Assembly (NCBI GenBank): GCA_037200525.1
Contig: JBBCGG010000001.1
Location: forward strand, 3,836,501 to 3,900,500
Direction of reading: 5' to 3'
Origin: Methylocella sp.
Lineage (GTDB): Bacteria > Pseudomonadota > Alphaproteobacteria > Rhizobiales > Beijerinckiaceae
DNA: 64,000 nt
Shown: piece after piece, positions 1,345 to 28,427 of the stretch
Layout of the letters: each line of letters starts with the position of its first letter
How positions within the stretch are numbered: position 1 is the stretch's first letter
The notes under the pieces: generated by a model
What the model was told of the DNA's origin: nothing
The model's database searches: none
Seen by the model: the letters and a program-made list of their open reading frames with translations, nothing else
Translations under genes and position numbers: made by a program

Positions 1345-2373
1345 TCATTGCGCCATCCCCGCGCCCCAGCCGGTCAGCTGCAGCACCGCGGCGACAATGA
1401 CCACCATGGCGAGCGACATCGGCAAAAACACTTTCCAACCAAGCCGCATCAGCTGGTCGTAGCGATAGCGCGGCACGAAGGCTTTCACCATGGCGATCAT
1501 GAAGAAAACCCCGCAAACCTTCAAAATGAACCAGATGGCCCCCGGAACCAGAGTGAAAGGCGCGAAGGGGATCGGCGAAAGCCAGCCGCCGAGAAAGAGT
1601 ATGGTCGTCAGGGCGCACATGGTGATGATCGCCACATATTCAGCGAGCATGAACAGCATGTAGGGCGTCGAGGAATATTCAACCATAAAGCCCGCGACAA
1701 GCTCGGACTCGGCCTCGACAAGATCGAAAGGCGGACGGTTGGTTTCAGCCAAAACCGAAACGAAAAAGATGACGAACATCGGAAAAAGCGGCAGCCAATA
1801 CCAGCCGAACAGTCCGAAGCGCGAATTCTGGGCGTTCACTATATCGGTGAGATTGAGCGACCCGACACAGAGCAGCACCGTGATGATGACGAAGCCGATC
1901 GAGACCTCATATGAGATCATCTGAGCCGCGGAGCGCAGCGCCGACAGAAACGGATATTTTGAATTCGACGCCCAACCGCCCATGATGATGCCATAGACGC
2001 CGAGCGAGGAGATCGCCAAAATATAGAGAATTCCGACATTGATGTCGGCGATGGCCCAGCCATCATCGATCGGAATCACCGCCCAGGCCGCCAGAGAAAG
2101 CAGGCCCATGACGAAAGGCGCGAGCAGAAAAACCCCTTTGTTCGCGCCGTCTGGAATGACGGGCTCTTTGAGGACAAACTTCAGCATGTCCGCAAAGCTT
2201 TGTAGAAGTCCCCAGGGACCCACCACATTGGGGCCGCGCCGCAGCTGCACCGCCGCCCAGATTTTGCGATCCGCGTAAAGAATATAGGCGATGAAAATCA
2301 GCAGGACGACGAGCAGAACGACGCTTTTCACGAGGGTGAGAAGCAGAGGCAGGAACCAACCAGTCTCGGCCAT
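1345..2373 (-). CDS. nuoH: NADH-quinone oxidoreductase subunit H
   Basis: Membrane subunit that forms much of the quinone-binding site and links the peripheral and membrane arms. About eight hydrophobic helices are seen. The conserved [20 protein letters not shown] segment follows helix 1, and [20 protein letters not shown] carries the acidic loop facing the quinone cavity. I place the start at the ATG at 2373 (MAETGWFLP), 5 bp after the nuoG stop; the reading frame stays open further upstream inside nuoG, but that part looks non-native. The resulting length is 342 residues, normal for the family. Confidence 0.95.
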
Positions 2374-2378
2374 GGCTT

Positions 2379-4442
2379 TTACTCCGCCGCCTGCCGCGCG
2401 AAATTGGCGTTGAGGGCGGAACACTCCGCCATCACCGCCGACGCGCGCGCGATCGGATTGGTCTGATAGAAATCAACGACGGGCGACGCGAAAGACGCGT
2501 TGCCGAACGCGCCGCCGGCGGCGATGAGCGCTGCAGGATCGAATGGAGCGCCCGCGGCGATTTCATCAATCGCGCCAAAATGCGGATGCGCGGCCATGAG
2601 GCGCGAGCGCAAAATCTTGAGCGAATCGAACGGCAAGCGGCGTCCGAGCGCATCGGAGAGCGCGCGGATAATGGCCCAATCCTCGCGCGCGTCGCCCGGC
2701 GGAAAATTGGCGCGATCGGCCAATTGCACGCGCCCCTCGGTATTCACATAGGCGCCGGATTTCTCAGTATAGGCGGCTCCCGGCAGAATGACGTCGGCGC
2801 GCGCCGCGCCCTGATCGCCATGCGAGCCTTGGTAGATGACAAAGGCTCCCGGCTCGATGGCGATTTCATCGGCGCCGAGGTTGAACAGGACATCGAGCGC
2901 GCCGCTTTTCGCCATGGAGGCTGCGTCAAGGCCGCCCTGGCGCGGAACAAAGCCAAGATCAAGGCCGCCGACGCGAGCCGCGGCGGTATGGAGAATCGCC
3001 AAGCCGTTCCAGCCATCCTTGATGACGCCGAGCGATGTCGCAGCTTTGGCGGCCAACGCCAGAACGGACAGTCCGTCCTCGCGCGCAAGAGCGCCCTGCC
3101 CGATCAGCAACATCGGCTTTTCCATTTTAGCCGGCGGATGGTTGGCGAAACTCGCCAGGGTATCGGGTCCGGCGCCGAGATAGGCGTAGTCATAGGTAAG
3201 ATCGGCTTTCTCGCCGATAACGCCAATCTTGAAGCCGCCTTTCAGCCAGCGCTTGCGGATGCGGGCGTTCAGGACAGGCGCTTCCTTGCGTGGATTGGAG
3301 CCGATGATCATCAGCCCATCGGCGGCTTCGATGCCGGCGATAGTCGGGTTAAAGAGATAGCTGGCGCGACCAAATTTCGGATCGAGCTTGGCCCCGTCCT
3401 GACGGCAATCGAGCGAGATCGAGCCAAGACCTTCGAGCAGCGATTGCAGCGCGAACATCTCTTCGACGGCGCAAAGATCGCCCGCAATGGCCCCGATGCG
3501 CGCCGGGCTCGTCGCCTTCACCTTTGTCGCGATCAAGCCAAAAGCCTCTTGCCACGAGGCGGCGCGCAATTTGCCGCCTTCGCGCACGTAGGGGCGATCA
3601 AGGCGCCGCGTTTTCAGGCCGTCGACGACTTGGCGCGTCTTGTCGGAAATCCACTCTTCGTTCACGAGTTCATTGGTGCGCGGCAGGATGCGCATCACCT
3701 CGCGTCCGCGCGTGTCGATGCGGATGGCCGAACCCAGCGCATCCATGACGTCGATCGACTCGGTCTTGACGAGCTCCCATGAGCGCGCCTTGAACGAATA
3801 GGGCTTTGGCAACAGCGCGCCGACAGGGCAGAGATCGGCGACATTGCCCTGCAGCTCGGAGCGCATCGCAGTCTCAAGATAGGTCGTGATCTCCATGTCT
3901 TCGCCGCGGCCGATTGCGCCCATGTCGCCCGTGCCCGCGACTTCTGCGGTGAAGCGGACGCACCGCGTGCAATGGATGCAGCGGTTCATCGAGGTGCGGA
4001 CCAGCGGCCCAATATATTTGTCCTCGACCGCGCGTTTGTTTTCGGCGTAACGCGAGGAATCGAATCCGAAGGCCATCGCCTGATCCTGCAGATCGCACTC
4101 GCCGCCCTGATCGCAAATCGGGCAATCGAGCGGATGATTGATGAGCAAGAATTCCATGACGCCTTCGCGCGCCTTTTTCACCATCGGCGACTTGGTGAGA
4201 ACGACGGGCGGCTCGCCATTCGGGCCAGGGCGCAGATCGCGCACAGCAACGGCGCAGGAGGCGGTGGGCTTAGGCGGGCCGCCCTTCACTTCGACGAGAC
4301 ACATGCGGCAATTGCCGGCGACCGACAGCCGCTCATGAAAGCAAAAGCGCGGAATCTCGGCCCCCGCCTGCTCGCAGGCCTGCAGCAGCGTATATTCGGG
4401 CGCGACGTCGATTTCGACGCCATCAACGATAAGTCTGCTCAT
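2379..4442 (-). CDS. nuoG: NADH-quinone oxidoreductase subunit G
   Basis: Large iron-sulfur subunit of the peripheral arm (687 residues). The N-terminal domain has the [2Fe-2S] ligands in [15 protein letters not shown]. It is followed by [14 protein letters not shown] (the histidine-ligated N5 cluster) and by CIHCTRC with a downstream CPVGAL proline-cysteine (N4). The C-terminal half has the molybdopterin-oxidoreductase fold without the cofactor, as usual for NuoG. The gene starts 60 bp after nuoF and runs up to nuoH with a 5-bp spacer, so it is surely co-transcribed. Confidence 0.97.
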
Positions 4443-4502
4443 GCCCTATCCTCAATGCGGCGGTTCGACGGGATCGAGGCTCCACTCGATGCGACCATGC
4501 CT

Positions 4503-5813
4503 CTACTCCGCCGCTACGCCGAAGCCGGCGGCCGGCTCCGAATGCGGGTTGGCGGCATATTGATCGATGCGCTTTTCGATTTCCGGACGAAAATGCCGGA
4601 TCAGACCCTGCACGGGCCAGGCTGCCGCATCGCCGAGCGCGCAAATCGTGTGGCCCTCGATCTGGGTGGTGACTTCGAGCAGCATGTCGATCTCGCGCTT
4701 CTGCGCGCGCCCTTCAGCCATGCGCGAAACGACGCGCCAGAGCCAGCCCGTGCCCTCGCGGCATGGCGTGCACTGGCCGCAGCTTTCGTGCTTGTAAAAA
4801 TAACTCAGCCGCGCGATGGCCCGAATGATGTCGGTCGACTTATCCATCACGATAACGGCGGCGGTTCCAAGGCCAGATTTCAAATCGCGCAGCGTGTCGA
4901 AATCCATCGCCGCGTCGATGATCTGGTGGGCCGGAACGCAAGGGACCGAAGACCCGCCCGGGATCACCGCGAGGAGATTGTCGTAGCCGCCGCGAACGCC
5001 GCCGCAATGCGCATCGATCAGCTCGCGGAACGGAATCGACATCGCTTCTTCGACATTGCACGGCTTGTTGACATGGCCGGAGATGCAGAAAAGCTTGGTG
5101 CCGGCATTGTTTTTTGCGCCGAACCCGGAGAACCAGGCGGCCCCCCGCCGCAGGATCGTCGGCGCGACTGCTATCGATTCCACATTATTGACGGTGGTCG
5201 GGCAGCCATAAAGGCCCATATTGGCCGGGAAAGGCGGCTTCAGCCGCGGCATGCCTTTCTTGCCTTCGAGCGATTCGAGAAGCGCCGTCTCTTCACCGCA
5301 GATATAGGCGCCGGCGCCGCGATGAACGTAGATGTCGAATGGCCAGCCGTGAATATTGGTCTTGCCGATCAGATTGGCCGCATAGGCCTCCGCAATCGCC
5401 GCCTCAAGACGGTCCGCCTCAAGGATATATTCGCCGCGAACATAAATGTAGCAGGCATGCGCCTCCATCGCGAAACAGGCGATGAAACAACCCTCAATCA
5501 GGAGATGCGGATCATTGCGCATGATCTCGCGATCCTTGCAGGTGCCAGGCTCCGACTCGTCCGCATTGACGACGAGATAGGACGGCCGCGCCGGATCGGC
5601 TTTCGGCATGAAGGACCATTTGAGGCCGGTCGGGAAGCCGGCGCCGCCGCGCCCGCGCAGGCCCGAGGCCTTCATCTCGTTGATGATCCAGTCCTTGCCT
5701 TTGTCGATCAGATCTTTGGTTTTATTCCAGGCTCCGCGCGCGCAAGCGCCCTTGAGGCTGCGATCGCCGAAGCCGTAGAGATTGGTGAAGATGCGATCCT
5801 TGTCTTCGAGCAT
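4503..5813 (-). CDS. nuoF: NADH-quinone oxidoreductase subunit F (NADH/FMN)
   Basis: NADH-oxidising flavoprotein subunit. The glycine-rich [13 protein letters not shown] motif (residues about 50-62) binds [23 protein letters not shown] lies in the FMN/NADH pocket, and [10 protein letters not shown] with a later cysteine ([13 protein letters not shown]) forms the N3 [4Fe-4S] cluster. The 436-residue length is typical. It lies 11 bp after nuoE, consistent with the standard E-F-G order of the NADH dehydrogenase module. Confidence 0.97.
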
Positions 5814-5824
5814 CGAGATGGGCC

Positions 5825-6700
5825 TTACGATTTCTTCGGATCGGACGGGAATTTTTGCGCGCTTGCCTGATCAACGCCAACCGCTGCCGCCTCGGTGTGC
5901 TTTGCCTGAGTTTTGACGATCGCGCCTTCCGGCTGAGTGGTCGATAGCTTTGCCTCTTGCTTGAGGCGTTCGGCGGCGGCCTCTGCTGGAGGCTCGTCCT
6001 GCGCCGCATATTCGGCGCGGGCCGCCTTCTCATCGCCGACGCTCGGCGCGGCCTTGACGCTCTGCGGACCGCTACGGCCATCGACGCCATAAAGCGACGT
6101 CAAGGAGGTCAACCCGCCCGAGGTTTCTGAACCGACGCGCCCCGTCTGCGAGCCAACCTTGACCGCGCGCCCCGCCGCCAGATCGTCGAGCAGTTTGGCG
6201 AAATTGCCGGGCGTCAGATCCTCATAATAATCATCGTTGATTTGCGCCATAGGCGCATTGCAGCACGCGCCGAGGCATTCAACTTCCGTCCACGAGAAAT
6301 TGCCGTCGGGCGTCACCCGACCCTGCTCGCCCACGCGGTTTTGCAAAACCGCCTTGATCGCATCCGACCCGGCCAATTGACACGGCGTCGTCCCGCAGAG
6401 CTGGACATAGAATTTGCCGACCGGGGAGAGATTGAACATCGTATAGAAAGTGGCGATTTCCAGCACGCGGATATAGGGCATGCCGAGCTTTTCGGCGACC
6501 TTCTCGATCGCCGGCCGCGGCAGCCAATAATCATTCTGCTTCTGCGCCCGCCACAGCAACGAAATCACCGCCGAGGCCTGACGCCCCTCGGGATATTTTT
6601 TGATGATATCCTCGCACCACGCCTCATTTTCAGGCGTGAAGGCGAACGAGTGGGGTTGCGCTTCGGCAAGCCGGCGAACGGACATATCAGCAATACTCAC
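5825..6700 (-). CDS. nuoE: NADH-quinone oxidoreductase subunit E with C-terminal extension
   Basis: Carries the [2Fe-2S] N1a cluster; ligands are visible in CGTTPC (residues about 102-107) and CLGACC (about 143-148). The thioredoxin-like domain ends near residue 190. It is followed by about 100 residues of low-complexity Ala/Glu/Lys-rich sequence, giving 291 residues in total; many alphaproteobacterial NuoE proteins carry such a tail, of unknown role. An internal ATG at residue 6 (MSVRRLAEA) is an equally good start. It sits between nuoD and nuoF. Confidence 0.94.
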
Positions 6701-6751
6701 GCATCAGGGCCAACGCGGCCGAGGGTTCAGGCAAGCATCCAAACGAATCGC

Positions 6752-7942
6752 TCATCGATCCACCTCGCCGAAGACGATGTCGATCGAACCGAGAATAGCG
6801 CTGACGTCAGCCAACATAGACTTGCGGCAGAGGAAATCCATGGCGGCGAGATGCGCAAAGCCCGGCGCGCGGATCTTGCAGCGATAGGGCCGGTCCGTGC
6901 CGTCAGACACGAGATAGACGCCGAACTCCCCCTTTGGCGCTTCGACCGCGCAATAAACCTCGCCAGCCGGCACATGGAAGCCTTCGGTATAGAGCTTGAA
7001 GTGATGGATCAGCGCCTCCATCGAGCGCTTCATTTCCGTGCGCGAGGGCGGCGTCACCTTGCCATGCTTTGGGGCGACAGGCCCCTGCCCCGTCGGCGAG
7101 GAAAGCTTCTCGACGCATTGCTTCATGATTTTGACCGACTGGCGCATTTCCTCCATGCGAATCACTTGGCGATCGTAATTATCGCCGTGCCGACCAACCG
7201 GAATGTCGAAATCTATCTCCTCATAGCATTCATAGGGCTGCGCCTTGCGCAAATCCCAGGCCGCGCCCGAGCCGCGCACCATGACGCCCGAAAATCCCCA
7301 GCGCCAGCAATCCTCGAGGCTGACGACGCCGATATCGACGTTGCGTTGCTTGAAGATGCGGTTGTCGATGAACAGCGTCTGCAGATCGTCGCAAATTTTC
7401 AGGAAAGGATCGCACCAGGCTCCGATGTCATCGACCAGCTCTTTTGGAATATCCATGTGAACGCCGCCGGGACGAAAATAATTCGCGTGCAGCCGCGCGC
7501 CGGACGCGCGCTCATAGAACACCATAAGCTTTTCGCGCTCTTCAAAACCCCAAAGCGGCGGCGTCAGGGCCCCGACGTCCATCGCCTGCGTCGTCACGTT
7601 GAGAAGATGCGATAGAATCCGGCCAATTTCGCAAAACAGCACGCGCAGCAACTGGCCGCGCCGCGGCACCTCAATCCCGAGCAATTTTTCGATGGCGAGG
7701 CAGAATGCATGCTCCTGATTCATCGGCGCGACATAATCGAGCCGGTCAAAGTAAGGCACGTTCTGCAGATAGGTGCGCGCCTCCATCAGCTTTTCGGTGC
7801 CGCGATGCAGCAGGCCGATATGCGGGTCGACGCGCTCGACGACTTCGCCGTCGAGTTCGAGAACCAGCCGCAAGACGCCATGCGCAGCCGGATGCTGCGG
7901 GCCAAAATTGATCGTGAAATTGCGGACCGGAGTGTCGTTCAT
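6752..7942 (-). CDS. nuoD: NADH-quinone oxidoreductase subunit D
   Basis: The 49-kDa subunit, related to the large subunit of [NiFe] hydrogenases; with NuoB and NuoH it shapes the quinone site. Clear landmarks are [19 protein letters not shown] at the N-terminus, [13 protein letters not shown], and the C-terminal DIVFGEVDR ending. The frame is open 64 codons upstream, but that part overlaps nuoC and is Ser/Arg-rich noise. I therefore use the ATG at 7942 (MNDTPVRNF), which gives the normal 396 residues and a 34-bp spacer after nuoC. Confidence 0.96.
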
Positions 7943-7976
7943 GTGCTGGTTTTCACGCGGTTCAGTTGCAAAACAT

Positions 7977-8591
7977 TCACTGCGGATTGGTCTTGGCTTT
8001 CTCGTCGCCAGGCAGGACGTAATCGATCGCCCCCTCCCACGGCGAGAGGAAGTCGAAGTTGCGGAATTCCTGGGCGAGCTGGACCGGCTCATAGACGACG
8101 CGCTTCTGCTCGTCGTCGTATCGAACCTCCACATAGCCGGTCATCGGAAAATCTTTACGCAGCGGGTGGCCATCGAACCCATAATCAGTCAGCAGACGGC
8201 GCAAATCGGGATGGCCTGAGAAAAACACGCCGAACAGATCATATGCCTCGCGCTCGTACCAATTCGCGGCGGGGTAGAGTCCCGATAACGAGGGGACCGG
8301 CGTTTCCTCATCGGTCATGATCTTGATCCGGATGCGGCGATTATGCTTTGGCGACAACAAATGCGTCACGACGTCGAAGCGCTGCGCGCGGGTTGGGTAA
8401 TCGACGGCGGTCAGATCGATAAAACAGACAAAGAGGCAGCTCGGATCGTCGCGAAGATAGGTCACGGTTTCGATGAGACAATCCGCCCTCACCGTCAAAG
8501 TCAGCTCGCCATAGGCAACAACGGCCGACTCGACCCAGCCGCGCAAGGCCGTCGCTATCGCGTCTCCCAGTTGTTTCAGCTCGTTTTCCAT
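7977..8591 (-). CDS. nuoC: NADH-quinone oxidoreductase subunit C
   Basis: The 30-kDa subunit of the peripheral arm, 204 residues. The signature [22 protein letters not shown] lies near residues 110-130, followed by the conserved [16 protein letters not shown] block. It is separate from nuoD, as in other alphaproteobacteria, not fused as in Escherichia coli. An unusually long 225-bp gap separates it from nuoB; the gap holds a palindrome and a dispersed repeat, annotated separately. Confidence 0.96.
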
Positions 8592-8722
8592 CCGAACCTT
8601 CCGACCTCCCCCGTCCGCATCGGCAGGATCCGTGCGGAGCGGCGCAAGTCTTGTTAGCGCTTTGTTGTGTCTGTTTTTCTTAGGTTGTAGTCGCGGGCTC
8701 TAGCCCTGCGTCTTAAATATCC

Positions 8723-8744
8723 GGAGAATGATTGATCATTCTCC
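8723..8744. repeat. Palindrome in the nuoB-nuoC gap
   Basis: Perfect 10-bp inverted repeat GGAGAATGAT / ATCATTCTCC separated by TG. It lies inside the nuo operon. With a two-base centre it is a poor hairpin terminator and lacks a T-run on the minus strand; a regulator site or a transcript-processing element is possible. Function is not known. Confidence 0.5.
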
Positions 8745-8773
8745 TTCTTGGCGACTGCCCTAGCGCAATCGAC

Positions 8774-8814
8774 GCATGACCTTATGCAAAAAGCCTGCAA
8801 CTCTTGGGATCATG
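8774..8814. repeat. Dispersed GCATGA...GATCATG palindromic repeat, copy 1
   Basis: A roughly 41-bp imperfect palindrome bounded by GCATGA and GATCATG, with an inner AAAAAGCCTGCAACTCTT segment. It resembles two further copies at 21608-21648 and 22701-22743 and the short palindromic intergenic repeats common in Rhizobiales. It ends 3 bp beyond the nuoB stop. This copy is the most degenerate of the three. Confidence 0.4.
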
Positions 8815-8816
8815 TT

Positions 8817-9395
8817 TCACCGCTCGATCGTGCCGGTGCGGCGGATTTTCTTTTGCAAGAGCAAAACGCCGTAGAGCAGCGCTTCCGCCGAGGGCGGGCA
8901 GCCGGGAACGTAGATATCCACAGGCACGATCCGATCGCAGCCGCGCACGACCGAATAGGAATAGTGGTAATAGCCCCCGCCATTGGCGCAAGACCCCATC
9001 GAGATGACATAACGCGGCTCCGGCATCTGATCATAGACCTTGCGCAGAGCCGGGGCCATTTTGTTGGTCAAGGTGCCGGCGACAATCATCACATCGGATT
9101 GACGCGGCGAACCGCGCGGCGCGAAGCCGAACCGCTCGACGTCATAGCGCGGCATCGAGACCTGCATCATCTCAACCGCGCAACAGGCGAGTCCGAAAGT
9201 CATCCACATCAACGAGCCCGTACGCGCCCAGTTGATCAGATCGTCCGTCGTGGTGACGAGGAAGCCCTTATCGGCGAGTTGATCGTTGATCGACAAAAAA
9301 TAAGGATCGTTGGCCGCCAGCGGCCGATCCGTCGCCCGGCCGACCCCAGCGCTCGAGGGCGCCAAATTATCCTGTGGCAAAGGGCTCAATCCCAT
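8817..9395 (-). CDS. nuoB: NADH-quinone oxidoreductase subunit B
   Basis: Holds the terminal [4Fe-4S] cluster N2 that reduces quinone. Ligand motifs are visible as [19 protein letters not shown] and VPGCPPS. The start is set at the ATG at 9395 (MGLSPLPQ), which overlaps the nuoA stop by 10 bp and matches the usual MGL start of alphaproteobacterial NuoB; another in-frame ATG lies 21 bp upstream. The product has 192 residues, slightly long because of a variable N-terminus. Confidence 0.95.
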
Positions 9396-9751
9396 TCGAG
9401 CGCACCCTTCTTCCATTCATAGACGAAGCCGATGGTCAGTATTCCAAGGAAAACCATCATCGACCAGAAGCCGTAAATCCCGACCTGATGAAAGGCTACG
9501 GCCCAGGGAAACAGAAACGCGACTTCGAGATCGAAAATGATGAAGAGCAGCGACACCAGATAGAATCGCACATCGAATTGCATGCGCGCGTCGTCGAAGG
9601 CGTTAAATCCGCATTCGTAAGCCGAAAGCTTTTCTGGGTCCGGCGCCTTGAAGGCGACCAAAAATGGCGCGACGAGCAAAGCGCCCGATATGATTGCGGC
9701 TACGGCCATAAAGACCACGAGCGGCAAATACTGGTTGAGAAGGCTCGGCAT
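9386..9751 (-). CDS. nuoA: NADH-quinone oxidoreductase subunit A
   Basis: First gene of the nuo operon. The small membrane subunit (121 residues) has three hydrophobic helices. The conserved [25 protein letters not shown] loop holds the cysteine that is exposed in the deactive state of mitochondrial complex I. The operon promoter should lie in 9752-9965 between it and the tRNA-Asp gene; I see no box there that I would defend. Confidence 0.95.
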
Positions 9752-9965
9752 GAACTAGCTCGGTCTGGACCGGCGAGGTCTCGGATATTCGCGAAGCCAA
9801 GGGCGCATGCCCTTAACTTGGCGGCCACGCGATCCCTAACTCAGAGCAAAGGCCGGCGCAAGATGGTGTTTTGCAAGAGTCTAAACTGAAGCGTCTCGGC
9901 CGGATATGTTTGAGCTGAAACCACGTCTTTTCCGCGCCCGGCGATAGGAGCAAAACGCTCACAAA

Positions 9966-23192: not shown

Positions 23193-23387
23193 CAGAATCG
23201 GAGCCTTTCCCACAGATTCGCAATGCCCCCAGCCTTTTGATAGCTAGCCTCATTAATAGCAAAGGCGTGCGCCTCGAAGCAAGCGCCGCGTCAATTGCGC
23301 CGAAAGCGGGCATTGCCGCGTCTCAAAACACCGTTTCGATTCGCGGACGAATCAGTCTAGTTATTCCGCTCCTCGCCGTCACGCCGC

Positions 23388-23411
23388 GGCGACTATGTAC
23401 TTTACAAACCA
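23388..23411 (+). repeat. Left terminal inverted repeat of the IS1595-type transposon
   Basis: Starts GGCGACTATGTACTTTAC and ends AACCA. It matches the reverse complement of 27615-27638 at 21 of 24 positions. The 8-bp target duplication CACGCCGC lies directly outside. Confidence 0.9.
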
Positions 23412-23457
23412 CGTAATTTGATTTAGGATGATTTCAGTTAGAAATCAGGTGTTTGCT

Positions 23458-24374
23458 ATGTCAGTCCTTTCGAAGCCCTACTTCCACGATGAGGCCAAAG
23501 CCTTCGAGCATCTCGAAAGCGTTTTGTGGCCGGAGGGTCCGGTTTGCCCGCACTGCGGTTCGATCAGCGGCAAGCACTACGATCTGCGCAAGACGCGCCT
23601 TGGCCTTCGCAAATGTTCGGATTGCCGCAAGCAATTTACGGTGAAGGTCAAGACCGTTTTCGAACAGGCTCATATCCCGCTGAATAAGATGCTTCAAGCG
23701 GTCTATTTGATGTGCTCCAGCAAGAAGGGCATTAGCGCGCATCAGCTGCATCGAATTCTGGAAATCACGTACAAAAGCGCGTGGTTCCTTGCGCATCGCA
23801 TTCGCGAGGCCATGCGCGTGGGCTCTCTTAGCCCTCTGGGCGGCGATGGCAAGACCGTTGAGGTCGATGAGACCTACATTGGCCGTTTAGAAGGCTATCC
23901 GAAACAGCGCCGGGGGGCGCTCATAAGAACGTTGTCTTGACGCTGGTCGAGCGCGGCGGCTCTGCCCGCAGCTTCCACATTGACACCGCCAGCGTTGCGC
24001 AGATTGCGCCGATCGTGCGAGCCAACATCGCCCGCGAAACCGCGCTCATGAGCGATGAAGGCGCGCAATATAGGGAAGTCGGTCGCGACTTCGCTTCGCA
24101 TGAGACCGTAAATCACGGCGAGAAAGAATACGCTCGCGATCACGTCACGACTAACACGGTCGAGGGCTTCTACAGCATCTTCAAACGCGGCATGAGGGGC
24201 GTGTACCAACATTGCGGCGAGCGCCATTTGCATCGCTATTTGGCGGAATTTGACTTTCGCTACAGCAATCGCAGCGGGCTTGGCACTGAGGATAAAGAGC
24301 GGACTGGGAAAGCTTTGATTGGTGTGACAGGCAAGCGGTTAAAATATAGGGGATCTAGCGCGATCCATGTCTGA
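23458..24374 (+). pseudogene. IS1595-family transposase, frameshifted
   Basis: The N-terminal frame has the zinc-ribbon pair CPHCG and CSDC. It continues through the helical domain to the first catalytic Asp (VEVDETYIG). At the six-G run 23912-23917 the reading moves to another frame (a resumption read as AHKNVVLTLVERGG), which carries the second and third catalytic regions (MSDEGAQYREVG and NTVEGFYSIFKRGMRGVYQH). The break is either programmed frameshifting, an indel, or a sequencing error. I start at the ATG at 23458 (MSVLSKPYF); another ATG lies 30 bp upstream. The ISXO2-like DDE domain is otherwise complete. Confidence 0.9.
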
Positions 24375-24533
24375 TTCTCAAAAAGTCAAGCGGAATAAAC
24401 CTTGACAACCCCATGATTCGCGACACATAACGAACTGCGGGTGATTATGCGCCGAACATCCTGATGATGTCAGGAGACCGGGGTTTACCGTATCCCTCGT
24501 AAAGAGGGTGTAGGTGCCTAGCTCCCGCTCCTT

Positions 24534-25271
24534 TTATCTCCCCCGAAACCGCATATTCCATACCGTGAACCTTGTGACGTTATGGGGGCTGTCCACGTCG
24601 AACGTAGTTAGCCCACTTTTATCAAGAATTTTATGTGCTAGCTCGCGCTTTGATTGGCGACCTTCTGCGAGCAAATGTCTGCCGTTACGGGCGGCACAGA
24701 CGGCCCCTAAGATCAAATCATTCAACTGCAATAAATCGCACTTTTTTGAGTCTTCGGACACCAGTTGCTTGACCGGGTTAGTTGTAATGTTGTGGTCTCG
24801 AGCAGCTGTTCTGTTCAGCATTCTGCGTATATCCTCCAGGGGCGTCTGGCTATTCCGGTGGTCCAGCCTCACGTAAAGCGACCCCTTCGCACCATATAAT
24901 TTTACAAATTTATGAAGCAAAAGTTGATAGTACAACTTTGAGAGACCTACATCTCTTTCACCGTTGTTATATTTGGTGTGATTCCATTGGTGGCTGTCGA
25001 AAACTAAATTATTGAAATGCATGTAATTGGCGTTATTCATGGCAAAAAAATAATCAATCAGAGCTTCATATTCTCCTTGCTTCTGATTTGACACCCTCTG
25101 CCATTTCAACTCGGCATTCATATTGAATTTATCTCTGTATTTTTTTAGCGTCTCGTAGGCCCGTGTTAGCATGTTACGGTGCATGCAAAGACCGCCGACG
25201 ACGACAAATCGATCGCTGGATATGCCAGATTCATCTGCGATGAAAACATAATCTTCGGGTGGCACGAACAT
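24534..25271 (-). CDS. DUF3800 domain protein (transposon passenger)
   Basis: The 245-residue product has the DUF3800 pattern: FIADESG (Asp13) on the first strand, VVVGGLCM on the second, an ELKW acidic motif (Glu54), VRLDHR in the middle, and LLQLNDLILGAV with Asp185 near the end. This acidic set is thought to form an RNase H-like nuclease site. The family is frequent in mobile elements and near defence genes, but its role is unproven. It is divergent from the small gene at 25270; the two start codons share two bases. Local base composition is lower in GC than the core genes, fitting transfer. Confidence 0.85.
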   Translation of the reverse strand: MFVPPEDYVFIADESGISSDRFVVVGGLCMHRNMLTRAYETLKKYRDKFNMNAELKWQRVSNQKQGEYEALIDYFFAMNNANYMHFNNLVFDSHQWNHTKYNNGERDVGLSKLYYQLLLHKFVKLYGAKGSLYVRLDHRNSQTPLEDIRRMLNRTAARDHNITTNPVKQLVSEDSKKCDLLQLNDLILGAVCAARNGRHLLAEGRQSKRELAHKILDKSGLTTFDVDSPHNVTRFTVWNMRFRGR

Positions 25272-25491
25272 GAGTAAAGGAAAGTCCGACGCGAAAAATA
25301 AAACGAATCAAGCCAAGATACAGCAATCGGATAGATTCACAGAAGCCGCCCGCGAACTCGGCTGCGACGAAGACGAATCGCATTTCGACGAGAAGCTAAA
25401 GAAAGTCGCGCGGCATACGCCGACCAAAGTGCCGCCTGTCGGCCACGAGAAAGACTCGCATAGCGAGCAAAAGAAGGAGCGACGACGCTGA
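25270..25491 (+). CDS. Small basic/acidic passenger protein of unknown function
   Basis: A 73-residue, highly charged protein. It has a Lys-rich start (MSKGKSDAKNKTNQAK), a middle SDRFTEAARELGCDEDESHFDEKLKKVAR, and a Lys/Glu/Arg tail. The middle section resembles small proteins I have seen beside mobile-element genes in alphaproteobacteria, with no known function. Its ATG overlaps the DUF3800 start on the other strand, so the two may share a promoter region inside each other's coding sequence. Confidence 0.6.
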   Translation: MSKGKSDAKNKTNQAKIQQSDRFTEAARELGCDEDESHFDEKLKKVARHTPTKVPPVGHEKDSHSEQKKERRR

Positions 25492-25499
25492 TTTGAAAG

Positions 25500-25772
25500 A
25501 TGGAACAGCTGCCCCTATGGGACGTTACCAAACTCACCCAAGCGGAGGATCAAATGTACGGGACTGCGACCTTAAAAGAGAGGGAAAACATCAACCAGCA
25601 CGAGCCGGTTGTCGCGGAAGAAAAGCTGCAAGCCTTCACTCGGGAACTAACCGAAGTATCCCGTAAACATGGAATCGGAATTGCCGGCGAACCGGACCTT
25701 TTCGTTTTTGAGCCTGAAGACTATGCGGCTGTCTATCATTGCGACTCGGAAAGCCGCCTTACGTTAGACTAG
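25500..25772 (+). CDS. Passenger protein of unknown function (90 aa)
   Basis: Follows the 73-residue gene by 8 bp in the same direction, so the two are probably co-transcribed. The sequence is acidic, with a predicted helix (EEKLQAFTRELTEVSRKHG) and a beta-rich C-terminus (DLFVFEPEDYAAVYHCDSES). A second ATG at 25554 (MYGTATLKE) is possible. The last 9 bp overlap the 3' end of the convergent gene 25764-26294. No family recognised. Confidence 0.6.
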   Translation: MEQLPLWDVTKLTQAEDQMYGTATLKERENINQHEPVVAEEKLQAFTRELTEVSRKHGIGIAGEPDLFVFEPEDYAAVYHCDSESRLTLD

Positions 25773-26294
25773 CCTGACCGTCAGGCCCGTGTTCGGCATG
25801 GGAATATCAATTGACGGCTCGACGCCGCGCGTGTCGCGGAGCACTTGAAGGACAACGCGGGCGTCGAGCGTCTTCCCAATCATAGCCTCTGATTCTGGCC
25901 TCGGAACTTCGACTGTCTTTGCTCTGTAAACGAAAAGCCCCTGGCTCGCGTCGATGGCTCTGAGAGCGAGAGCGCGGATGTAATACATATTGAATTGCGA
26001 CTCGGCCAAGGTTTGGGAAGCGGTGACGGGCACCCGCCTCATCCCTGTACCCCCGCCTCGGGGCTTGTTATATGCGACCTCAATCTTAAAGCAGTTCGCC
26101 CTGCGTAGGGCGTTGGCGAGGCTGTCGTCTGTGCCTTTTTCCGCCGCCTGTATCAGCAGGGGAACCCATCTTAAACGGCCTATTTCGTTGAGATAATCGC
26201 TCACATAGACAGTTCCGCCCGCTCTATCTATTTCGATCTCGCTAAGCATTGACTGGCGTGTCGTATCGTCCAAATGAACAAATGAAAGCCCCAT
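25764..26294 (-). CDS. Conserved transposon/defence-island-type protein of unknown function (176 aa)
   Basis: Starts MGLSFVHLDDTTRQSMLSEI and has a middle motif RRVPVTASQTLAESQFNMYYIRALALRAI, then VYRAKTVEVPRPESEAMIG and a final NTGLTVRLV. I recall this pattern from uncharacterised proteins of bacterial mobile regions, but no function is known to me. An IS3-type element is inserted 19 bp upstream of the start codon, so its original promoter may be disturbed. It converges with the 90-residue gene. Confidence 0.7.
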   Translation of the reverse strand: MGLSFVHLDDTTRQSMLSEIEIDRAGGTVYVSDYLNEIGRLRWVPLLIQAAEKGTDDSLANALRRANCFKIEVAYNKPRGGGTGMRRVPVTASQTLAESQFNMYYIRALALRAIDASQGLFVYRAKTVEVPRPESEAMIGKTLDARVVLQVLRDTRGVEPSIDIPMPNTGLTVRLV

Positions 26295-26380
26295 GGCGAT
26301 TTCCTCGTCGCTCTGGTCTGCCCCCTGAAAAGTGATCCTCCGTGAAGTATGGGCTTATGAGCCTGATGGAGGACTGCGCA

Positions 26381-26659
26381 ATGCCGAGGAAAAGACAGAA
26401 GGCGGAAGAGATCGTCGCGAAGCTACGGCAAGTCGAAGTGCTTAGCGCGCAAGGGCGACCGGTCGCGGAGGCGATCCGCTCGATAGGGGTGACGGAAGTT
26501 ACATACTATCGATGGCGGTCGGAATACGGCGGCCTGAAGGGCGATCAGGTGAAGCGGCTGAAGGAGCTGGAGGCGGAGAATACGCGGCTCCGTCGAGCGG
26601 TGTCCGATTTGACGCTTGAGAAGCTGATCCTGAAAGAGGCTGCCTCGGGAAACTTCTGA
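26381..26659 (+). CDS. IS3-family transposase OrfA
   Basis: A 92-residue protein from the ATG at 26381 (MPRKRQKAEEIV). The helix-turn-helix (RPVAEAIRSIGVTEVTYYRWRSEYGG) is followed by a leucine-zipper-like helix (LKELEAENTRLRRAVSDLTLEKLI). In the IS407 group the product is usually fused to OrfB by -1 ribosomal frameshifting near its end. Confidence 0.9.
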   Translation: MPRKRQKAEEIVAKLRQVEVLSAQGRPVAEAIRSIGVTEVTYYRWRSEYGGLKGDQVKRLKELEAENTRLRRAVSDLTLEKLILKEAASGNF

Positions 26660-26682
26660 GCTCCGCGCGTCGTCGCGCCTGC

Positions 26683-27549
26683 GTGGAGCATGTGATCGCC
26701 GAACATGGCGTTTCCGAGCGGTTCGCTTGCCGGGTTCTCGGTCAGCATCGCTCCACGCAGCGCAAGGTTCCGACCAAGCCCGATGACGAAGCGGCATTGA
26801 TCGCCGACATCACGGCGCTCGCCATCCAGTACGGCCGCTATGGCTACCGCCGCATCACGGCGATGTTGTGGGAGCGAGGCTGGAAGGTCAACGTCAAACG
26901 GGTCGAGCGGATCTGGCGACGCGAGGGGCTGAAAGTTCCGGCCAGACAACCCAAGCGCGGGCGTCTCTGGCTCAATGACGGCTCGTGCGTCCGGCTGCGC
27001 CCGCAATGCCCCAACCACGTCTGGTCCTATGACTTCGTCGAGGACCGCACTCATGATGGCAGGAAATATCGCATGCTGAATATCATCGACGAATTTACCC
27101 GCGAATGCATCGCGATCAGGATTAACCGGAAGCTGAAGGCAGCGGACGTCATCGACGTTCTCTCGGACCTCTTCATCTTGCGAGGGGTTCCGATCCACAT
27201 TCGTTCCGACAACGGCCCGGAGTTCATCGCCAAGGCGTTGCGTGACTGGATTGCCGCCGTCGGCGCGAAGACCGCCTACATCATGCCGGGCAGTCCCTGG
27301 GAGAACGGCTATTGCGAGAGCTTCAACTCGAAGCTGCGCGACGAGCTTTTGAATGGTGAAATCTTCTACACTCTCAAGGAGGCGAAGGTCGTCATTGAGC
27401 GATGGCGACGCCACTACAACACCGTGCGCCCGCACTCATCGCTGGGCTACAAGCCGCCAGTCCCGGAGACCCTGCAATGGCCGGCTTCGCAATCCGGACC
27501 AGCTTCGCCCGCCACGCCAGCAATAGCGCCAGGGCCGACAATGCACTAA
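26683..27549 (+). CDS. IS3-family transposase OrfB (DDE integrase)
   Basis: The 288-residue DDE domain has the first Asp in VWSYDFVEDRTHDGRKYR, the second in IRSDNGPEF, and Glu in PWENGYCESFNSKLRDE; the typical ending PHSSLGYKPP is present. It appears intact. It lies in the -1 frame relative to OrfA and is probably translated as a fusion product. Confidence 0.93.
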   Translation: MEHVIAEHGVSERFACRVLGQHRSTQRKVPTKPDDEAALIADITALAIQYGRYGYRRITAMLWERGWKVNVKRVERIWRREGLKVPARQPKRGRLWLNDGSCVRLRPQCPNHVWSYDFVEDRTHDGRKYRMLNIIDEFTRECIAIRINRKLKAADVIDVLSDLFILRGVPIHIRSDNGPEFIAKALRDWIAAVGAKTAYIMPGSPWENGYCESFNSKLRDELLNGEIFYTLKEAKVVIERWRRHYNTVRPHSSLGYKPPVPETLQWPASQSGPASPATPAIAPGPTMH

Positions 27550-27614
27550 CATTCAAACTGGATCACCCCATGGGGGCAGGCCAGCTCAACGGGCGCAAAC
27601 TAAGCTGATTCGCA

Positions 27615-27638
27615 TGGTTCGTAAAGTACACAATCGCC
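27615..27638 (-). repeat. Right terminal inverted repeat of the IS1595-type transposon
   Basis: Reverse complement begins GGCGATTGTGTACTTTAC and ends AACCA, matching the left end at 21 of 24 positions. It is followed by the target duplication CACGCCGC (27639-27646), only 13 bp before the rsmE start codon. Confidence 0.9.
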
Positions 27639-27659
27639 CACGCCGCCGGTCCTAGCCAC

Positions 27660-28427
27660 ATGCCCCGCTATGATTTCACCTCCCATCGGCTATACGTCGA
27701 CGCCACGCTGGCGCCAAACGCGGGGATCGATCTCGATCCGGACCAGGCCAACTATCTCCGCAATGTCTTGCGTCTGCCCGACGGCGCCGAAATTCTGGTG
27801 TTCAACGGCCGCGACGGCGAATGGTCCGCTAATCTGTCGGCCGCCAATCGCAAATCCGTTGCGCTGGTCGCGCGCGATCTAGTCCGCCCACAGACGCCGC
27901 CGTTCGGTCTCCACTACCTCTTTGCGCCGCTCAAACATGCAAGGCTGGATTATATGATCCAGAAAGCTGTCGAAATGGGGGCGGGCCTGCTCCGTCCGGT
28001 TCTTACCCGCCGAACTCAGGCTGAACGAATCAATGAAGGGCGCATGCACGCCAATGCGATCGAGGCCGCAGAGCAATGCGGCATCCTCTCGATCCCCGAA
28101 ATCGCCCCTGCAATCCGACTCGACGCCTTGGTCGAGGGCTGGGACAAAACCCGCCTGCTCGTGTTTTGCGATGAAGATGCGCCGGTGCGAGACCCCTTGC
28201 AGGCCTTGAAGGCCTTAACGCCCCTTTCCGCCAAGGGTGAACCGCTCCCGCTGGCGGTATTGATAGGCCCCGAAGGCGGCTTCGACCCGGCTGAACGCGA
28301 GGCGTTGCTGGCGCTGCCGCAAGTCTTGCGCCTGTCGCTTGGCCCGCGCATTTTGCGTGCTGACACGGCGGCCGTGGCCGCGCTGGCCGTGATTCAGGCT
28401 TCAATCGGCGACTGGCGACATTCTTAA
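27660..28427 (+). CDS. rsmE: 16S rRNA (uracil-1498-N3)-methyltransferase
   Basis: SPOUT-fold methyltransferase acting on the 30S subunit. The N-terminal PUA-like domain includes NYLRNVLRLPDGAEILVFNG. The knotted C-terminal domain has IGPEGGFDPAEREAL and LSLGPRILRADTAAVAALAV, the S-adenosylmethionine-binding signature. The length of 255 residues is normal. The transposon right end lies 13 bp before the start codon beyond its target duplication, so any native promoter has been pushed away; expression may depend on sequences within the transposon or IS3 element. Confidence 0.96.
   Translation: MPRYDFTSHRLYVDATLAPNAGIDLDPDQANYLRNVLRLPDGAEILVFNGRDGEWSANLSAANRKSVALVARDLVRPQTPPFGLHYLFAPLKHARLDYMIQKAVEMGAGLLRPVLTRRTQAERINEGRMHANAIEAAEQCGILSIPEIAPAIRLDALVEGWDKTRLLVFCDEDAPVRDPLQALKALTPLSAKGEPLPLAVLIGPEGGFDPAEREALLALPQVLRLSLGPRILRADTAAVAALAVIQASIGDWRHS

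Follow-up and report, generated by a model that had tools for sequence, protein, structure and literature searches.

The 64,000-nucleotide stretch of Methylocella DNA analysed here (the window) contains an IS1595-type transposon with four passenger genes, which raises the question of whether these genes form one set and what they would do for the transposon or its host. An initial annotation had delimited the element by 24-bp inverted repeats and a perfect 8-bp duplication, and both are present in the sequence. The left terminal repeat (23388–23411, + strand), which has similar counterparts at the ends of relatives, agrees with the right repeat (27615–27638, − strand) at 21/24 positions, and copies of CACGCCGC lie at 23380–23387 and 27639–27646. 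In inverted form and at ≥18/24 matches, the left repeat finds only the right end in the 64-kb window, with the CACGCCGC duplication directly after it. Matching terminal repeats and an 8-bp target duplication, a described trait of the family (PMC8101967), place the element in IS1595, and the passenger genes between its ends make it a transporter insertion sequence (tIS). Transposase domains and internal open reading frames (ORFs) support the same assignment.

The transposase is split over two frames. Its first piece (23428–23940, + strand) carries the zinc ribbon PF12760 and the start of the IS1595 transposase domain before the frame breaks near its end, and the second piece (23937–24374, + strand) carries PF12762 (DDE_Tnp_IS1595) in a different frame; the two Pfam profiles exceed their cut-offs on the two pieces and NF033547 does so on both. 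The gene is open in a single frame in 95/97 elements with exact ends, described below. No intact, functional transposase is present in this copy and no intact copy was found in the same genome, so the split lowers any claim of an active copy, while the family assignment is unaffected. The right part of the element is occupied by a nested IS3-family insertion sequence of 1,270 bp (26314–27583, + strand), overlooked in the initial annotation, with orfA (26342–26659, + strand), an orfB containing an integrase core (26683–27549, + strand) and a GCTC duplication (26310–26313 and 27584–27587) within the 3–4 bp expected of IS3. Profile NF033516 scores orfB above and orfA below its cut-off, and the insertion may belong to the IS407 group. 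Counting the window copy, the genome holds at least 39 full-length copies, besides a copy of 865 bases and a weak fragment; this is a lower bound, from scoring 40/74 candidates. The "complete" 4,251-bp unit first proposed (23388–27638) thus stands in its ends and duplication and fails in its transposase and in the nested copy, without which, together with its 4-bp duplication, it measures ~2,977 bp. The window element is thus a cargo transposon of the IS1595 family, present as a stranded and decayed copy.

All four passenger ORFs reported initially were recovered. A DUF3800 protein of 245 aa (24534–25271, − strand) and a 73-aa protein with a two-helix core (p73; 25270–25491, + strand) lie head to head, their starts overlapping at 25270/25271 with CATG common to both start codons. 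They are followed by a convergent pair, a 90-aa protein (25500–25772, + strand) and a 176-aa protein (phrog_30545; 25764–26294, − strand), whose ends overlap at 25764–25772. The proposal that these genes move as one four-gene module did not survive comparison: DUF3800, p73 and the 90+176 pair come apart in related elements. Among 199 genomes of the same family, DUF3800 relatives occur in 9 and the 73-aa gene in 23, and the 90- and 176-aa genes in the window only. The pair recurs together in one other element, there next to a different slot A (see below), and constitutes a two-gene module of its own. The 176-aa protein had no match in viral contigs in a close-relative scan or in the PDB.

A common layout emerges from 97 distinct related elements, each delimited by matching inverted repeats and an 8-bp duplication (≤1 mismatch) and spanning 1,977–7,100 bp. 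They comprise the window copy, 37 from loci found with p73 and 59 from loci found with the transposase; in this IS1595 clade 80/176 relatives were retained. The order is transposase, slot A, the constant small gene p73, slot B and right repeat; in the window, DUF3800 fills slot A and the convergent pair slot B. Unrelated cargo surrounds these fixed blocks (left end with transposase, p73 core and right repeat): 208 cargo ORFs of ≥90 aa, shorter ones being ignored, fall into 126 families, many of them singletons. Slot content differs even where transposases are 93–94% identical. Among the transposase pairs listed, 22 of the closest 25 have no slot-A family in common, and mean transposase distance hardly differs between pairs that share slot A (0.395) and pairs that do not (0.410). 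DNA similarity between close pairs is limited to the left end and transposase, the p73 core and the end repeats in 6/9 cases, and additionally includes slot-B or right-end sequence in the other 3. Slot exchange would proceed by homologous recombination between elements, with the transposase, p73 and ends providing the shared sequence.

The most constant passenger is p73, which is found in 36/37 p73-found and 45/59 transposase-anchored exact-end elements, always on the transposase strand. It is dispensable for transposition, because the other 14/59 transposase-anchored elements have no detectable copy. In 79 elements with p73 and an unbroken transposase (window omitted), p73 divergence tracks that of the transposase (Mantel r 0.236, 0/999 permutations), with a small cargo effect as well (14/999). 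Purifying selection acts on the gene, with a pooled pN/pS of 0.42 and 13/13 chosen pairs below 1, and p73 is a selected protein. The window p73 had no match in Pfam, NCBIfam, PADLOC or PHROGs, nor any in the PDB by profile (best E only 0.27). We consider p73 most likely to serve the transposon itself, in a regulatory or accessory role, and less likely to be an antitoxin dedicated to one particular cargo.

Among Pfam-recognised cargo, DUF3800 ranks first, at 23/103 slot-A ORFs and 9/89 other cargo ORFs (192/208 cargo ORFs were scanned with Pfam and PADLOC, omitting 16 in nested parts of two elements, L044 and L048), set against a background of 28 matches when 99 whole genomes from the family are scanned. 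The earlier suggestion of an RNase H-like nuclease candidate is supported for the window protein, which scores 41.9 bits against PF12686 (gathering cut-off 21). Its predicted fold (mean pLDDT 85.8) best matches RNase HII in the PDB (E 2e-4), with moderate TM-scores of 0.38–0.48 across the five best Foldseek matches. Acidic residues D13 and D185 are invariant in 12 sequences and D137 lies in the third strand, so the model combines an RNase H-like fold with conserved acidic positions. The window protein also matches PADLOC PDC-M04A (E 3.2e-33), a phage defence candidate by database listing alone. Cas12a2-linked TPR-DUF3800 proteins, as described in PMC10910872, likewise combine a predicted RNase H-type fold with a suggested connection to RNA; in the window passengers, by contrast, Pfam and NCBIfam profiles detected neither a Cas nor a TPR domain. 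Among the open-licence papers listed for IS1595 and passenger genes, none mentions DUF3800.

A feature overlooked in the first reading lies between the transposase and DUF3800: a structured RNA candidate of ~100 nt (about 24434–24538, + strand), convergent with DUF3800, whose U-run overlaps the DUF3800 stop codon. Three hairpins are enclosed in one long closing helix. The candidate is common to five DUF3800 loci, and these five sequences, which form the training set, fold singly into the same shape. Across them 90.9% of cells pair and 17/31 pairs are changed on both sides, vs 7.7 in shuffles and 2–6 when the alignment is slid; four helices show covariation, and GAAAA-like and GUAG stretches are conserved and unpaired. 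A model built from the five weakly matched two elements that are more distant (E 0.006 and 0.013), in both directly abutting DUF3800, and matched none of the other DUF3800 loci of the family in 71 sources. The RNA copy in G293 lies at least about 9 kb from any DUF3800, and locus L060 has RNA and DUF3800 with no IS1595 transposase detected in 9.5 kb. Element, DUF3800 gene and RNA are all present in the cultivable Methylocella tundrae (L041/L183). Known Rfam RNAs (RF02967 DUF3800-VII, RF02915 DUF3800-VI and RF02969 DUF3800-I) similarly abut DUF3800 genes, and DUF3800-VII or -VI occupies the equivalent convergent site in 3/22 further slot loci. The window RNA, with its three hairpins in a long closing helix, differs in fitting no Rfam model: positions 23200–27850 searched to E 5 gave no DUF3800 RNA and two weak matches to other families, and L041, L048, L060, L209 and L001 had no match to E 1. 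It is a candidate for an uncatalogued structured RNA. An RNA on the DUF3800 strand (24375–24560) was considered and rejected (z −0.18 vs −2.36 on the opposite strand), as the Rfam strand and the U-run also favour the opposite one. Of 29 DUF3800 cargo genes, only 16 show a strongly structured 3′ flank when the opposite strand is folded, and nearly as many, 15, when the gene strand is; an RNA partner may therefore not be universal, and the strand was assigned from Rfam, the U-run and the fold of the window sequence itself.

Could the conserved segment be a bidirectional transcription terminator rather than a functional RNA? The transposase and DUF3800 genes do converge on it, in the window and in L060 the closing helix runs into a stretch of U, and many DUF3800 flanks fold well on both strands. 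Four covarying helices with conserved unpaired stretches nevertheless exceed what a terminator needs, L060 has the RNA with no transposase detected nearby, and curated DUF3800 RNAs take equivalent positions, which makes a terminator improbable. A further alternative is retention in the manner of TnpB and IscB, in which nuclease and RNA would cleave the donor site left empty and the transposon would then be copied back. The RNase H-type fold beside an RNA inside a transposon fits this, as does the role in interference or crRNA handling proposed for Cas12-linked DUF3800 (PMC10910872). The RNA is internal, however, away from the element ends and therefore unable to read flanking DNA as a guide, and gene and RNA persist in L060 with no IS1595 transposase detected; we regard such retention as very improbable.

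If p73 were a generic antitoxin or adaptor, slot A and p73 would form a toxin–antitoxin pair and the RNA would be mere terminator or UTR structure. The p73 start overlaps the slot-A gene by 1–60 nt in 20/31 same-strand cases and CATG is shared in 7/35 opposite-strand cases (scored from the closest ATG, a choice that favours small offsets), slot A includes PIN and SocA domains, and cargo has its residual effect on p73 distance (14/999). Yet p73 is kept directly after the transposase where slot A is empty (for example L164, L197, L199, L200 and L201), accompanies PD-lambda-5 cargo in L092 and diverges with the transposase, so that the antitoxin reading is unlikely. An ordinary tIS that picked up neighbouring genes at random, with p73 and RNA incidental, has precedent in known passenger-bearing elements (PMC7986276, PMC5704250) and agrees with the many singleton families (126 for 208 ORFs). 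It is hard to reconcile with a p73 that is constant in place and strand and under selection, with DUF3800 recurring far above background and with RNA covariation, and we judge it as improbable as the terminator.

We favour, with a probability of roughly 0.7, a modular IS1595 cargo transposon bearing an RNase H-fold nuclease–RNA pair whose putative function is probably defence or addiction. Slot A of the window would hold DUF3800 and its convergent RNA as one unit; the RNA would be expressed as a partner of the predicted nuclease, serving as guide, cofactor or RNA antitoxin, and the pair would benefit transposon or host. Sister slots contain homologues of known defence genes, namely BstA (L174, L209), PD-lambda-5 A+B (L092) and UzuA (L149), of which BstA and PD-lambda-5 are reported as experimentally known phage-defence genes (PMC8585504, PMC9519451). 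The element may be a transposable defence module, as first suggested. A general defence enrichment of its cargo class does not follow, as PADLOC also matched many families among 99 flanking ORFs, including AbiEi, AbiEii and reverse transcriptases, and 12 of 20 hand-picked cargo proteins had no match. A fuller version, which we hold tentatively and at slightly under even odds, is an IS1595 cassette platform with p73 and the ends fixed and the slots freely exchanged, in which the commonest slot-A protein, DUF3800, forms a ribonucleoprotein with its own convergent RNA, the window RNA is a new class and orphan copies such as that of G293 may be decoys.

The name DUF3800 still marks an uncharacterised domain, and the RNAs catalogued beside it likewise have no assigned function. 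In the present elements it is the cargo most often recognised, within a compact transposon of defined limits, and slots of sister elements contain homologues of validated phage-defence genes, so that gene and RNA can be cloned together and tested directly. Reading the slots between p73 and the fixed blocks could reveal further small systems, as with the cargo of Tn7-like elements (PMC8649781). Those transposons with defence cargo, and Tn3-family transposons with toxin–antitoxin pairs (PMC7157771), are described as carrying comparable genes but belong to other transposase families, whereas the present unit is 2–4 kb with slots around a small constant gene.

Closer relatives are the tIS MTnSag1 and tISCpe8, described with an IS1595-type transposase, inverted repeats and passengers within one pair of ends (PMC5704250, PMC7986276). 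The window lineage differs from them in its constant second gene, present in most copies, its two exchangeable slots and its size: none of the 61 transposase-anchored exact-end elements is below 1,977 bp, so that the same ends were mostly not seen to bound a transposase alone. The near-exception is a second element in L209 of 1,505 bp, with a transposase, a 50-aa ORF and no evident cargo gene; a one-base shift in its flanking repeat kept it out of the count. It belongs to the loci excluded from the 97 for ≥2 flanking-repeat mismatches (with L041/L183, L049/L142, L053/L134, L116, L127, L188 and L208). Both it and the L208 element have a perfect 9-base repeat once the end is shifted by one base, and by eye the 50-aa ORF of the L209 element resembles the 73-aa protein.

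The transposon at window positions 23388–27638 belongs to a lineage of IS1595-type elements in which fixed blocks alternate with differing slots. Its inverted-repeat ends and 8-bp duplication are exact, as the initial annotation had claimed, and two features alter the picture given there: an IS3-family insertion sequence (IS) is nested inside it and its transposase lies in two frames. Slot A separates the transposase from p73, a constant 73-aa gene, and slot B follows p73 up to the right end; in the window, slot A holds a DUF3800 gene and slot B convergent genes for 90- and 176-aa proteins. Searches of Pfam, NCBIfam, PADLOC and PHROGs gave no match for the window p73. The gene is present in 23/199 genomes of the host family and, by profile search, in 42/397 of the host order. 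An IS1595 transposase lies upstream on the same strand in 49 of 59 fetched p73 regions (16/19 and 33/40), with exact ends in 36 of these (11 and 25); the ten regions without such a transposase include some short contigs. A separate transposase scan, limited to the top 80 of 176 relatives from named genomes (mostly Alphaproteobacteria by name), yielded 61 loci with inverted repeats and an 8-bp duplication (≤1 mismatch), the shortest element being 1,977 bp, and p73 downstream of the transposase in 60/80 (first profile). Pooling and deduplication by identity gave 97 exact-end elements: the window, 37 p73-found and 59 transposase-found. According to the profile round, 81–83 of them have p73, invariably on the same strand as the transposase; the fair figure for its frequency is 45/59, from the transposase-found elements. 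Eight of 15 elements without p73 come from sphingomonad-type hosts by name.

The 97 elements carry 208 cargo ORFs of at least 90 aa in 126 families, the largest with 17 members. Slot-A genes differ despite 93–94% identical transposases (e.g. L121/L140 and L174/L180), and no slot-A family is common to both members in 22 of the 25 closest transposase pairs listed, a comparison that counts slot A only, which is empty in both L197/L199 and in one of L054/L055. In nine close pairs, blastn delimits three blocks, namely the left end with the transposase (79–91%), the p73 core (61–125 nt, 71–98%) and the end repeats. Six pairs have no DNA similarity beyond these blocks; in L197/L199, L107/L156 and L051/L058, slot-B or right-end sequence is also similar. 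The slots may be exchanged by recombination at the common blocks. Earlier papers already describe IS1595 elements with passengers (PMC7986276, PMC5704250), transposons whose cargo includes defence or TA genes (PMC8649781, PMC7157771) and DUF3800 RNAs (PMC11701678); no description of the slot layout was found in searches of a partial, open-licence body of literature, and p73 and the RNA class, being nameless, lie beyond name search.

The divergence of p73 tracks that of the transposase (Mantel r 0.236, 0 of 999); cargo adds a minor effect (14 of 999). Purifying selection acts on the gene (pooled pN/pS 0.42, with 13 chosen pairs ranging from 0.21 to 0.71). Its predicted structure consists of two helices (19–30 and 36–47) with low-confidence ends (pTM 0.39). 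A CATG is common to the start codons of p73 and the slot-A gene in the window and six more of 35 elements with opposite-strand slot-A genes, using the closest ATG, a choice that favours small offsets; same-strand slot-A genes overlap p73 by 1–60 nt in 20/31. We infer that p73 serves the element.

Pfam counts, covering 192 of the 208 cargo ORFs, place DUF3800 in 23/103 slot-A and 9/89 slot-B or unassigned ORFs, and PIN in 11/103 slot-A ORFs; singletons include FRG, GmrSD, DNA methylases, HNH and an ion channel. No Pfam family exceeds two members among 99 flanking ORFs, and the 25 of 89 families listed include neither DUF3800 nor PIN. As background, 99 genomes yield 28 DUF3800 matches; three of these matches adjoin p73 and transposase within the flanks covered. 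PADLOC identifies BstA in L174 and L209 (slot B in each), both PD-lambda-5 genes in slot A of L092, UzuA in L149 and PD-lambda-2_C in L106, and finds no match for 12 of 20 chosen cargo proteins submitted singly. Over all cargo, PADLOC does not establish general defence enrichment, because flanking ORFs also score. BstA mediates abortive infection (PMC8585504) and PD-lambda-5 gives broad protection (PMC9519451); their homologues in the slots are candidate defence genes. In L209 (Sphingomonas changbaiensis), BstA accompanies a DUF3800 protein 58% identical to that of the window; the M. tundrae DUF3800 is 57.5% identical. A second frequent slot-A cargo is a ~245–290-aa protein followed by a PIN-type protein (L132, L059, L167, L189 and others); PADLOC matched none of the three such proteins submitted to it singly (both from L132 and the second from L059).

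All five PDB matches below E 0.001 to the predicted window DUF3800 structure (mean pLDDT 85.8; Foldseek) are RNase HII or H2, in agreement with the RNase H assignment published for another DUF3800 (PMC10910872). In a comparison of 12 sequences D13 and D185 never vary, and D137 is acidic in most (by eye). A covarying RNA lies beside this gene (window ~24434–24538). Five DUF3800 genes (window, L209, L041, L060 and L048) have a conserved block in their 3′ flanks; folded singly on the strand opposite the gene, each copy adopts the same shape, with three hairpins between a GAAAA-like and a GUAG-like linker, closed by a long helix. In a MAFFT alignment of the five, 90.9% of 154 cells pair, and both-side changes occur in 17/31 pairs versus 7.7 in shuffles and 2–6 when slid; the pair structure was taken from the same five sequences, which favours it, and the slid control leaves this bias in place.

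The RNA has no match in Rfam. Over 71 sources, a covariance model recovered the five training loci (the window twice, via an overlapping locus) and two weak extra matches, L126 (E 0.006) and L205 (E 0.013), each immediately adjacent to a DUF3800 gene in convergent orientation; no other DUF3800 locus of the family matched. Together with L187 and L193, these two make up a second class of RNA, closed by a long helix of its own, in which 4/23 pairs show both-side changes (four sequences). An Rfam scan of 22 further loci located DUF3800-VII at the equivalent convergent place in L100 and L094, and DUF3800-VI in L174. More generally, a 105-nt segment at the stop codon folds with z < −2 on the opposite strand for 16/29 DUF3800 versus 25/155 other cargo genes (Mann–Whitney p 0.0007) and on the gene strand for 15/29 versus 28/155 (p 0.013), the profile used calling 29 DUF3800-like ORFs versus 32 by Pfam. 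The RNA may be a partner of the DUF3800 nuclease, and together they could serve in defence or addiction. Since the RNA lies inside the element, a TnpB-like system that cuts the donor site under RNA guidance is unlikely.

Across 397 genomes, with stricter filters, the model found two known loci and a new copy in genome G293 (E 6.5e-13; L247 1501–1598, L248 ~9031–9128); the 18 kb retrieved there contain neither DUF3800 nor p73 nor an IS1595 transposase. This orphan may be a relic or a decoy RNA. Nearby, a 126-aa ORF resembles a phage small terminase by eye.

The 90- and 176-aa pair recurs in slot B of L102 (39% (69 aa) and 43% identity, respectively), beside a different two-gene cargo in slot A. 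Other relatives of the 176-aa protein occur on Hymenobacter and Rhodococcus plasmids, in the latter one gene apart from an AbiEii-type gene, and in an Erwinia phage.

The window copy is probably stranded, because its transposase is split into two ORFs in different frames and its genome has no intact relative, the three matches being the two pieces and a weak 171-base match. Among the 97 exact-end elements the transposase is broken only here and in L102, a count confined to elements whose ends are exact; some of the remaining loci have partial transposases (e.g. L101, L109, L111 and L115). The nested IS (26314–27583) is flanked by a 4-bp duplication, GCTC. It lies upstream of the 176-aa gene, 19 nt from its start codon, and leaves that ORF uncut. 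The IS has at least 39 full-length copies at 99–100% identity in the 5.24-Mb genome, window copy included (a lower bound, 40 of 74 candidates having been scored), a recent burst. Matching 4-bp flanks are kept by three of eight copies inspected (window, L002 and L007, from the window and L002–L008); the mismatch at the others suggests later rearrangement between copies.

Several relatives depart from the common layout. At 5400–6904, L209 contains a second element, of 1,505 bp, that adjoins the full cargo element and lies between copies of the 9-base repeat CATCGTGAC. It comprises a transposase and a 50-aa ORF, without evident cargo, and counts against a simple rule that cargo is always present. 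By eye the 50-aa ORF resembles p73, and the lineage may have a basic unit of transposase plus p73, to which this element would conform. In the L055 element (1461–5326, transposase orientation) the transposase ORF has 724 aa, ~400 aa more than its relatives; cargo may be fused to it, or a stop may be missing. In L048/L198, a DUF3800 gene of the window type is interrupted by a nested 4.6-kb element (duplication AAAGTAAT) carrying a second, divergent IS1595 transposase. Finally, the L132 element at 4154–6921 and its neighbour, and those at 6936–9951 and 9960–12475 in L153, lie head to tail with one common 8-bp repeat (CAAACGCT and TGACCTTT, respectively), as if one had inserted at the other's end.
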